Of a stretch of 64,000 nt of DNA, positions 59,098 through 63,926 are shown in pieces. The DNA lies in NCBI GenBank assembly GCA_029931975.1, contig JAOZQY010000005.1, positions 1-64,000 of the forward strand, written 5' to 3'. Made by a program: the position numbers and the translations under genes. The number at the start of each line of letters is the position of its first letter. The stretch's first letter is position 1. The notes beneath the pieces were generated by a model. The model saw only the letters and a program-made list of their open reading frames with translations, made no database searches and had not been told where the DNA came from. Source of the stretch: Bacteroidales bacterium. Lineage in GTDB: Bacteria > Bacteroidota > Bacteroidia > Bacteroidales > GCA-2748055.

Positions 59098-60220
59098 CTA
59101 TAGCTTAAAGCCATCCAGACACAGAGTATCACCCATCTCCACCTGGAGTTTCTCCAGTTTCTGAAACATGCTGCCAAGGCGATCCTGCTGTCTTGATGCT
59201 ATTGCCAGATTATGCATTTCCAGGGGATCATTGACCAGGTCAAACAATTTTACTACCCCAGCTTTCGGATAAACAATCAATTTGTACTCGTCTACCCGGA
59301 TCATTCTCTGGAGATCCATATAAGCTCCATATACCTCCGGGTAATTTGAAGCAGAGCTTTCCCCTTCAATAAAAGGTTTAAGGCTTTTGAATTCCACCCA
59401 TTCCGGCACTTCGCCTCCGGCATACTCTATGGTAGTGGGCATGATGTCCTGCAGGTAGACTTCCATATTCTTTCGCTCTCCTGCATAGACTCCCGGGCCT
59501 GCCACCAACAAAGGTGGGCGCATGCTGTGCTCATACATATTCTGTTTCCCCATCAATCCGTGCTGTCCCACTGATAGTCCATGATCGGCAGTAAAAAAAA
59601 TATAGGTATTATCGGCCTGCCCGGTCTCTTCGAGATGCGCAAGGATCCTTCCAATCTGTGCATCCAGATGGGAGATAATGGCGTAGTATTCCTGTCTGTG
59701 CACCTTCACAGAATATTCGGTCCTGGGAAAGGGTGCAAGCTTCTCATCTCTCAATGTGGCAGGACATCCTATCTCATCCTTAAGTGGATATTCCGGGAGG
59801 AAATTCTCAGGAAGTGAGATATTATCCAGGGGATACAAATCCACATACTCCTTTGGTGATTGCCTGGGATCGTGGGGCGCATTAAAAGCCACATACATAA
59901 AGAAGGGCTTTTCTGAAACTGAAGCGTCATCCAGAAATCCCATGCATTCATTGGCCACCACTTCGCTCCAGTGGGTTCCACCCTCCCAGAACCCTCCGAA
60001 AGCGGTGTCCCATGGGGTCCACTCCCAGTCATTCTCGTCCAGCGGCCGGTCGTGCCAATTCATCCAGAGTAGGTGTTATCACCTCCTGATTTCCCAGTTC
60101 GTGAATGGTATTGTAACACTGGTCATCGGCAAAAATAAACAGGATATTGGGTGGATCCTGCTCACTCTTACATGAAAAGAGCAGGGCAATTAGAAGCAGT
60201 ACAGCGGTAATTTTGTGCAT
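59098..60220 (-). pseudogene. Sulfatase lipoprotein with internal deletion/frameshift removing the formylglycine motif
   Basis: ORF 60029-60220 gives SCKSEQDPPNILFIFADDQCYNTIHELGNQEVITPTLDELA; ORF 59098-60063 gives ...RPLDENDWEWTPWDTAFGGFWEGGTHWSEVVANECMGFL...; no C/S-x-P/A-x-R motif between them. Confidence 0.8.
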
Positions 60221-60250: not shown

Positions 60251-61240
60251 TTACCTGGTTTCAATTTCAAATACAACAGCCATATCCTCGGGAACTTCAT
60301 CTGAAATAAGAAGGGAGAAGCCTGTATCTGACTGATTCCATTGAATGTTCTTGTCACATCCCATCAATTCCACGGAGCTTACCTCCAGGGATTCGGGCAG
60401 ACTATCCACCGCAAAGGCAGTGAGTTCGATATTCTTACCTGCCCCCGGCCATCCCAGCAAAGTGGCGTAAATTGTTTTGGATGCTGTGGTGTATCGAACA
60501 TCCTTCCATGAGTATTTGATTTCCAGGAATTCCTGGTGATTCCTGAAATGTCCTTCAGGCTCTTTGGTGGGACCCTCTCCAAAGGTATACCAGGGACGGG
60601 TGTCATAGATGGCCTCACCGTATTTCTCTAACCAGATCCCCATATCCAGCAATACCTGCTGCTGATTCCCGGGGATTGTTCCATCTGCCATCGGAGATAT
60701 ATTCAGCAGAAGCACACCATTTTTACTGCAGATATCAATCAGTACATGTAATACATCAGTGGCTGTCTTGATTTCCAGATTATCGGTATAGCACCAGCTT
60801 CCATTGCTGATAGTCTCATCGGTCATCCAAGGCTCTTCCCCGATCCGGTTCTTCCTTGACTTTTCCAGGTCATCCACGGTACAATTAATGGGCAGATCCT
60901 CATGTTTTCTTACAATAACGACCTCCTTATCCCATTTTTCAGCCTCATTCAGATAATTGGCAGAAAACTTTTGCCGGTAGGCCTCCGGAATCTGGTCCAA
61001 TACATAATCAAACCATATGATATCAGGAGAATACGGGTCAATAACCTCCTTCAGTTTAGCAAACCAGACCTCCTCCAGCCACACATCGGCGGGCATGTTG
61101 CCATATAGCTTCTGGAGCTTTGGATCATCAGAAGAGGTGGGCATTTCCCTGTAGAGGTTTCCCAGGTAACTGGTCCCGTAAACCACCTCCGGCACCAGCA
61201 GTCCGGTGCGTCCCAAGGGCTTTTTAGAAGTGAGTTTCAT
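60251..61240 (-). pseudogene. In-frame fusion: N-terminus of aldo/keto reductase joined to C-terminal part of GH29-like alpha-L-fucosidase
   Basis: First 33 aa MKLTSKKPLGRTGLLVPEVVYGTSYLGNLYREM match an AKR N-terminus; the rest (DPYSPDIIWFDYVLDQIPEAY...NGVLLLNISPMADGTIP...YGEAIYDTRPW.TFGEGPTKEPEG) is fucosidase. Confidence 0.75.
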
Positions 61241-61261: not shown

Positions 61262-62562
61262 TTAGTGCGCAAAAGTCCTTGTTCTGTACCCGTAAGCGGC
61301 AATCACCACAAAACAGATCAGAGGAATGATAAATGAGAAGTTCTCAGCCGGAATGGAGAGAACCGTTCCTTTTTCTATGATTACGGCCTGCAGAGGGGGC
61401 ATCACCGATCCGCCCAGAATGGCCATAATCAATCCGGCGGCACCAAATTTCGCGTCTTCACCCAGCCCTTTAAGTGCTATTCCATAAATGGTTGGGAACA
61501 TCAAAGACATGAATGCGGAAGTAGCTACTAGGTAGTACATGCCCATGATTCCCTGTGAAAGTATCACACCTGCTACGCTGACAAAACCTCCAATAGCAAA
61601 AAACATCAGGAGCTTTCCAGGCTTTACATAGCGCATCAGGAAGGTGGCAATAAATCTACTGACAATGAAGATGGCCATGGCCACTTTATTGTAATTCTGA
61701 GACAGTATTTCGGCATCCTGCTCTCCCATTCCCTGACTCATAAAGAAGCGGGTACCGTAATGAATAATAAAGGTCCAGCACATGATCTGAGCACCCACAT
61801 AGAAAAACTGGGCCACCACACCTTCCCTGTAGCGGGGGATCTCAAAAATCCGTTTCAGGGTTGGAAGTAAATCTATCTTGTGATTCTGATCCGCATTCTT
61901 CGGCATTCGCACCGCGGCCACAATCGCAAACATCACCAGGATAACGATTCCAATGATTACGTAGGGCGACGCAAGAATGTCCAGATCACTCATCTTCATG
62001 GCCTCAAACTCTTCCGGTGACAGTAAAGAACGCGTGGCTGTATCAGCTTCATTGATTCTAGCCTGGATGAAAGTGCTGGCAATATACATCCCTGTGATGG
62101 ATCCGATGGGATTGAAAGATTGAGCCAGGTTAAGCCGCTGGGTGGAAGTCTCCTCCGAACCCATGGACAAAATATAGGGATTGGCACTGGTTTCAAGGAA
62201 AGACAGGCCGCAGGTGAGGATGAAATAGGCGATTAAAATGGGGCATAGTATCCCATGGCACTGGCAGGGATGAAGAGAAGGGCACCCGTGGCATAAAGCC
62301 CAAGTCCCACCAGGATCCCGGACTTGTAAGTGAACTTACGAATAAACATAGCTGCAGGGAAAGCCATGGCAAAGTAGCCCCCGTAAAAGGCCACCTGCAC
62401 CAATGAACCCTGGGTGGTGCTCATCAGGAATATTTTTGAAAAGGCCTTGACCATGGGATTGGTAATGTCATTGGCCAATCCCCAGAAAGCAAAGCATGAG
62501 GTGATCAGTATAAAAGGAACCAGATATTGCTTCTCCAGTATCTTGAACTTTCTCTTCTCCAT
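61262..62562 (-). pseudogene. fucP: L-fucose:H+ symporter (FucP-like MFS) with single-nucleotide frameshift
   Basis: ORFs 62233-62562 and 61262-62170 rejoin as ...ASAMGYYAPFLIAYFILTCGLSFLETSANPYILSMGSEETSTQRLNLAQSFNPIGS if one A is added to the A4 run at 62235-62238. Confidence 0.85.
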
Positions 62563-62569
62563 TAGTTCT

Positions 62570-63167
62570 CTATTTTAGTTTGTAACAATCAATGGCATTC
62601 TGATATAATATTTTTTCTCGCTCTGACTTCTCCAGAGGCTCAATAAATTTCGTGACAATCTCAATCACATCGTCATATTCACCTGCCAGCCTGCAGACAG
62701 GCCAATCGCTCCCCACCATAATCCGCTCAGGTCCGAATGCCCTTAGTACTACTTGCATATAGGGCACAAAATCCTCCTGCTTCCAGTTGTGCAATCCCCT
62801 TTTTAAATTCGGGTTGCAACATAAAATTATCATCCGCCTCATCATGAATCACATGCCTTACCCCCACCAGTTTTGGATGAACAGCAAATTCTTTCAACTC
62901 TTGTCCCAGCTTCGGGGAGCAAAGATCAACCCAGCCAACCACACCTTTGATAAAAGGGTTCGCTACTGCCTGTCCCAACAACCAGCGCGTCTCCTCTATA
63001 CTCTGATTTGTCTGAACCACCACAGTTCCTTTGACCCTGGCCTTCTGAAGTTCAGGTTCCAGATTGGCCGGAAGGTAATCCCGCTTCAGTACAGACATGG
63101 TGTGGTCCATCCATCCATACTCTTCTGGCTTGTACTTCCAGAGGTGGTGATGTGCATCGATCATCAT
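62570..63167 (-). pseudogene. Amidohydrolase (L-fuconolactonase-like) with internal deletion and frameshift
   Basis: N-part MMIDAHHHLWKYKPEEYGWMD...GVVGWVDLCSP...GVRHVIHDEADDNFMLQPEFKKGIAQLE and C-part NWKQEDFVPYMQVVLRAFGPERIMVGSDWPVC meet in different frames near 62780-62800. Confidence 0.8.
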
Positions 63168-63544
63168 TACAATCTGTCCAGCTTGTAGATTCGCTCCATC
63201 AACTGCCACTTCTCATCGGCTCTGGCTTCAGAAGAGGTCTTCTGAAAGCGGGAGACAAAGGCCTCCCACTCCGATTGGCGGGGCTTCCCTGCCAGTTCTT
63301 TCATGTCACGATCGTGATCAAATTCCGGGATGGTATCCATAATCATGAACAGATGATTTCCCAGAATGTAAATCTCCATATCGATAATACCAACTTCGAT
63401 CATCCCCCGGGTAATCTCCGGCCAGGAATTTCCTTGTGCATGCACTTTCTTATACTCCTTAATCAGTTGTGGATCATCCTCCAGGTTCAGTGTCTTGCAA
63501 TAGCGCTTGTAGCAAGTGTAGTCTCTTTTTGAAATAACGGTCAT
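63167..63544 (-). CDS. L-rhamnose/L-fucose mutarotase family protein (RhaM-like); start moved from 63592
   Basis: YCKTLNLEDDPQLIKEYKKVHAQGNSWPEITRGMIEVGIIDMEIYILGNHLFMIMDT. Confidence 0.8.
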   Translation of the reverse strand: MTVISKRDYTCYKRYCKTLNLEDDPQLIKEYKKVHAQGNSWPEITRGMIEVGIIDMEIYILGNHLFMIMDTIPEFDHDRDMKELAGKPRQSEWEAFVSRFQKTSSEARADEKWQLMERIYKLDRL

Positions 63545-63619: not shown

Positions 63620-63760
63620 GTATTGAAAAAGCCACGGAACAGATATATCAATAAGGCCATTGATTTCTATAATAAGCTTCAAAAAGAGCCACAACAAGTT
63701 AAAGGGAGATTCCATAAATATTCTTCGGGATTTTGAGGAGATCGATTATGGAGCTTAAAC
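63620..63760 (+). pseudogene. Frameshifted antitoxin-like remnant upstream of the MazF-like remnant
   Basis: Frame pieces SIEKATEQIYQ*, INKAIDFYNKLQKEPQQVKGRFHKYSSG and FEEIDYGA*, the last overlapping the toxin ATG. Confidence 0.35.
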
Positions 63761-63926
63761 AATTTGATATCTGGCTGGCAGATCTGAAGCAGGACTGTGA
63801 TATACAAGTTGATCAATTTAGGGCAATTGACAACAAACGCCTGATAAAAAAGATCGGTGAGCTACCCTATGCATCTATAAAGACCACCATGAGAACCTGA
63901 AAATCATATTGGACCTGGATAATTAG
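63748..63926 (+). pseudogene. PemK/MazF-family toxin remnant with internal deletion and frameshift
   Basis: MELKQFDIWLADL|KQDCDIQVDQFRAIDNKRLIKKIGELPYASI then, in a shifted frame, KDHHENLKIILDLDN*. Confidence 0.7.

Follow-up and report, generated by a model that had tools for sequence, protein, structure and literature searches.

Bacterial deletion pseudogenes retain recognizable homologues, have missing parts and broken frames, and cluster in genes that are no longer needed (Liu et al. 2004, PMC522871). The locus described here, in a Bacteroidales genome, shares these properties, but the fused frame at its center is open and would escape frame-based pseudogene detection. One of the two genes that meet in this frame belongs to the GH29 alpha-L-fucosidases and exo-alpha-L-galactosidases (nearest solved structures 7snk, 7ljj, and 4ni3), in whose (beta/alpha)8 barrel strand 4 ends with the nucleophile and strand 6 with the acid/base residue (PMC10154630). 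What the fusion shares with these enzymes starts ahead of the nucleophile strand, runs to the C terminus, and includes the nucleophile Asp; the first ~208 residues, which hold the signal peptide, barrel strands 1 to 3, and the HWG and EHHDGF motifs, are gone. From the other, the aldo/keto reductase (AKR; PF00248) of a fucose operon, the first 32 to 33 residues are shared, while everything past the first barrel strand, including the catalytic residues and cofactor site, is missing. Set against these systems, the fusion amounts to a pseudogene of a familiar kind within an operon that is decaying. We consider it very probable that the pseudogene is recent, lies in a fucose operon that is being lost, and looks intact to gene finders.

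A single open frame joins parts of two genes

The window is the whole 64,000-nucleotide stretch analyzed, taken from contig C143. A 329-aa open reading frame is present at 60251 to 61240 on the minus strand, as the initial annotation had described, and its proposed makeup, an in-frame chimera of an AKR N terminus and a GH29 C terminus, is borne out by tblastn with intact relatives, by Pfam, and by a search of 60 relative genomes. We read this frame, an AKR start followed by the C-terminal ~59% of a GH29 protein, as a pseudogene. Codons 1 to 32 (61145 to 61240, minus strand) derive from the AKR, as judged from tblastn with the AKRs of relatives L026 and L028 and from DNA comparison. The remainder (60251 to 61144, minus strand), which begins in the barrel ahead of the nucleophile strand and continues through the C-terminal domain, derives from GH29, as judged from Pfam (PF01120 positions 186 to 345, and PF16757) and tblastn.

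The AKR portion comprises the first 32 to 33 codons of a sugar dehydrogenase gene and has 76 to 82% identity to relatives; residues 1 to 33 or 34 of the intact AKRs are placed at 61240 to 61142 or 61139, and the AKR of L028 matches the window solely with residues 1 to 33, at 61240 to 61142. The GH29 portion makes up the C-terminal nine tenths of the protein and comprises ~295 codons without a stop, with 74 to 82% identity to relatives. Here the L028 protein matches the window solely with residues 206 to 505, at 61153 to 60254 (74% identity), and the closest relative is the GH29 of L030 (82.5%). At the DNA level, the window tracks the AKR through CTCTACAGGGAA, with the last AKR-supported base at about 61145, and GH29-supported DNA begins with ATGCC at about 61144. 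The junction previously placed at 61138 to 61141 is thus confirmed in the sequence but lies a few bases away, at about 61144/61145 (within 61137 to 61150, minus strand), and ~2.62 kb is missing there relative to L026, L028, and L030.

Pfam analysis of the fusion detects Alpha_L_fucos from profile position 186 to 345 of 345, plus Fucosidase_C, corresponding to approximately the latter half of the catalytic domain and the C-terminal domain, whereas an intact relative covers positions 8 to 345. Both Pfam and alignment agree with the earlier assignment of this part, including the IWFD nucleophile region, to GH29. The AKR piece, which retains 33 of 349 AKR residues, gives no Pfam match. Its designation as a fucose-dehydrogenase type holds as far as AKR is concerned; the type is suggested by operon context, as the intact AKR of a relative scores as generic Aldo_ket_red only, and literature searches turned up no publication describing a fucose dehydrogenase of AKR type from operons like this one.

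Among the 60 relative genomes, no match covers the fusion protein over its full length (1 to 329). The best matches span residues 29 to 329 and lie within open frames of about 500 residues, and residues 1 to 34 to 1 to 40 are matched separately, mostly in open frames of about 350 to 420 residues. Because residues 1 to 34 and 29 to 329 match different genes in relatives, the two-source structure is not due to chance. A continuation of residues 1 to 34 into GH29 homologues was looked for in the relatives and not found.

The operon in relatives and the missing stretch

Where the window has the fusion, relatives have three intact neighboring genes, encoding the AKR, a zinc alcohol dehydrogenase (ADH), and the GH29 enzyme, within an operon ordered amidohydrolase-fucP-AKR-ADH-GH29-sulfatase. 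The order (amidohydrolase)-fucP-AKR-ADH-GH29 is seen in L026, L028, L030, L031, and L032, with genes at contig ends cut; the sulfatase directly follows GH29 in L026 and L028 and lies further downstream in L032. The fucP of an intact relative belongs to family TIGR00885 (L-fucose:H+ symporter), and in the window the start codon of the fusion, which is that of the AKR, sits 21 bp past the fucP stop. The distribution of the AKR-ADH-GH29 module across the genus is patchy: the ADH is missing in G017 and GH29 on contig C279 of G016, and the matches in G002 (C9) and G005 (C158) go from fucP directly to the sulfatase.

From the coordinates, the distance between the end of AKR codon 32 and GH29 codon 209 is about 2,623 bp in L026 and 2,616 bp in L030. 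The comparison with relatives supports a single deletion of about 2.62 kb, which would account for the losses from all three genes, and agrees with the earlier proposal that one deletion took most of the AKR and the N terminus of the fucosidase and left the frame open. Such an event would have taken 317 codons from the AKR, the initial 208 from GH29, and all 340 of the ADH. The zinc-type ADH, which lies between the AKR and GH29 in most relatives and is wholly deleted here, was absent from the initial annotation. Neither a second AKR copy nor a close ADH is found in the genome, which has only distant ADH relatives (27 to 39% identical).

Predicted function of the fused frame

The nucleophile Asp is kept in the fusion: D78 of the IWFD motif, whose aspartate is conserved in all relatives, aligns with an Asp in 7ljj and an Asn in 7lnp. 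A candidate acid/base region around PWMTDE is also present, although the acid/base residues of GH29A show poor alignment between sequences (PMC10154630). The complete (beta/alpha)8 GH29 catalytic domain is not there, as barrel strands 1 to 3 and the HWG and EHHDGF motifs, both conserved in all relatives, are missing, and so is an export signal, where most relatives begin with a lipoprotein-like signal (such as MKKY...LAAC). The catalytic tetrad of AKRs consists of Asp, Tyr, Lys, and His, and the AKR-derived piece, which we take to be only the hairpin and first strand of the AKR fold, does not amount to a domain with this tetrad. As the barrel would be unable to close, HWG and EHHDGF are missing, and there is no export signal, neither fucosidase nor reductase activity would be expected, and judged from its sequence the fusion is very unlikely to be an enzyme. 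AlphaFold2, run with the same nine sequences in both cases, gives a mean pLDDT of 43 for the fusion and 50 for an intact GH29 protein used as the control, which is itself poorly predicted.

Broken neighbors and the rest of the contig

Besides the fusion, three operon genes are broken, by two further deletions and one frameshift, damage that the initial annotation did not mention. Downstream, the sulfatase pseudogene (59098 to 60220, minus strand) has an internal deletion of ~96 codons and a frame change near 60048 to 60054, and aligns to residues 1 to 57 and 154 to 326 of the relative's protein in differing frames. The CxxSR active-site motif is gone; its cysteine (Cys76, by motif position in the L028 sulfatase), which is needed for formylglycine, is among the deleted residues. 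A 321-aa ORF at 59098 to 60063 would be annotated as a sulfatase though the active-site cysteine region is deleted. Upstream, fucP (61262 to 62562, minus strand) carries a 1-nt frameshift near 62231 to 62239, and the amidohydrolase, a probable sugar lactonase (62570 to 63167, minus strand), lacks ~76 codons and changes frame near 62779 to 62787, its remnant aligning to residues 1 to 129 and 206 to 276 of a relative in differing frames. Programmed frameshifting was rejected as an explanation for fucP, given the two unrelated frame-changing deletions in the same operon. Next to the amidohydrolase, rhaM, of the L-rhamnose mutarotase family, is apparently intact (63167 to 63544, minus strand; PF05336 1 to 105 of 105).

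Four lesions are thus packed into a 2.7-kb stretch (60.05 to 62.78 kb), and just upstream, at a distance of less than 5 kb, lie the remnants of two other genes with internal deletions. One is a PemK/MazF-like remnant of ~50 residues (63748 to 63900, plus strand; profile positions 68 to 99 of 109 only), in which an N-terminal dozen residues are joined to the C-terminal part and the middle is gone. The other, just outside the window, is a GH42 beta-galactosidase remnant with a 204-aa open frame on the minus strand (65452 to 66066 of contig C143, equivalent to L039:3453 to 4067) that matches profile positions 2 to 70 of 376 plus the C-terminal domain; like the fusion, it is an in-frame deletion scar, the second in this zone. 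Elsewhere in 102 kb of the contig, examined with a coding-frame Viterbi scan that in-frame deletions would escape, no frame lesions are seen; the other frame changes are only ordinary gene borders, with stop and start close by. Pfam matches are found in 9 of 10 neighboring genes tested, most with full or nearly full domains. This clustering of lesions, with the rest of the 102 kb clean, suggests relaxed selection at the fucose locus.

Junction sequences and a possible mechanism

AGGGAA occurs in both the AKR and GH29 genes of the nearest relatives, so that about 6 to 7 bp are shared at the fusion junction, although a crossover at this motif would give a junction one base shorter than the actual one, which calls for different ancestral bases or a later change. 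The sulfatase junction shares about 3 bp (ACG), and the amidohydrolase junction about 3 to 4 bp (TGG). Repeats in the 59- to 64-kb region consist only of short imperfect pairs, none of which flanks the junctions. The junctions fit microhomology-scale illegitimate recombination or slippage, which we infer with the exact ancestral bases lost. The AKR-ADH-GH29 stretch was probably deleted by such recombination, or by slippage during replication, at very short matches, once the operon had lost its usefulness or had first been inactivated, and the in-frame joining would be due to chance, with odds of one in three. If transcription of the operon starts on the amidohydrolase side, the frameshifted fucP would be crossed before the fusion is reached, so translation of the fusion would probably be weak.

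Rates of change

The fucP remnant shows faster amino acid change on the window lineage than uvrB (38/59 versus 19/61 singletons; Fisher P = 0.0005), and so does the sulfatase remnant (Fisher P = 0.02), in tests that disregard tree shape and possible transfer. The GH29 part gives mixed results that vary with the reference gene, P being 0.014 for GH127 and 1.0 for uvrB, the latter in a comparison that used other relatives. The dN/dS of this part against relatives is 0.055 to 0.096 where computable, with dS so near saturation that it cannot date the fusion. The low dN/dS, together with the lack of stops in the remnants, suggests that the decay is recent. By themselves, this low ratio and the ~295 stop-free GH29 codons speak against a pseudogene, but a recent loss would explain both.

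Alternative explanations

Compared with its intact homologues, the fusion is disrupted, and so are its operon neighbors; as damage extends to the sulfatase, fucP, and amidohydrolase genes of this operon, operon decay is favored over the birth of a new protein. That the fusion is instead a new cytosolic GH29-derived protein on an AKR start, kept by selection, is highly improbable. The junction is in frame, the AKR start codon is kept, 295 GH29-derived codons are free of stops, and the nucleophile aspartate is retained; however, half of the catalytic barrel is gone, the operon is broken both upstream and downstream, the fusion occurs in 0 of 17 congeners, and one in three deletions is expected to join in frame. 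It would be equally surprising if the protein were expressed, folded as a mosaic of an AKR strand and a GH29 half-barrel, and were maintained for a cytosolic role such as binding of fucosylated ligands. The least probable reading is an old clade-wide rearrangement, with a variant operon rather than recent decay in one lineage. The patchy module (no ADH in G017, no GH29 on C279 of G016) and the fucP-to-sulfatase matches in G002 and G005 would fit it, but the fusion itself is absent from G017, G016, G002, and G005, whose differences look like clean whole-gene presence or absence, and none of the 17 congeners has its junction.

An unlikely explanation, though more probable than these, is that the assembler, or strain mixing in a metagenome, created the deletions and the frameshift and that the operon of the living organism is intact. 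The assembly is a draft broken into 366 contigs, with 96% completeness and 3.1% contamination, and is, like its relatives, probably a metagenome-assembled genome; assembly errors underlie many pseudogenes in public assemblies (Cooley and Wright, PMC11017572), and several lesions within a few kilobases could mark a poorly covered stretch. Yet the two sides of each junction share at most ~7 bp, far under usual k-mer sizes, so a misjoin in the assembly graph is not expected. Nor are the missing AKR and ADH on another contig, as might occur had a real copy been skipped. Frameshifts caused by generic base error would be scattered, and none are seen elsewhere in the 102 kb; the faster protein change in the fucP and sulfatase remnants is likewise not predicted by assembly error.

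Implications for fucose use

Two open L-fucose isomerase genes lie elsewhere in the genome, on contigs C277 and C156 of G000. C277 additionally has two GH29-like matches, and C156 has a short stretch resembling fucP DNA; this content suggests a separate, putative isomerase-type fucose locus. As the genome also carries other GH29 genes besides the two isomerase genes, fucose use need not be lost. For annotation, the deletion scar passes as an intact 329-aa gene that would be called an alpha-L-fucosidase, and domain coverage and neighbors need checking before such ORFs are counted as fucose-degrading genes. For the organism, these observations suggest that the genome is dropping one fucose operon while isomerase genes are retained for another route.
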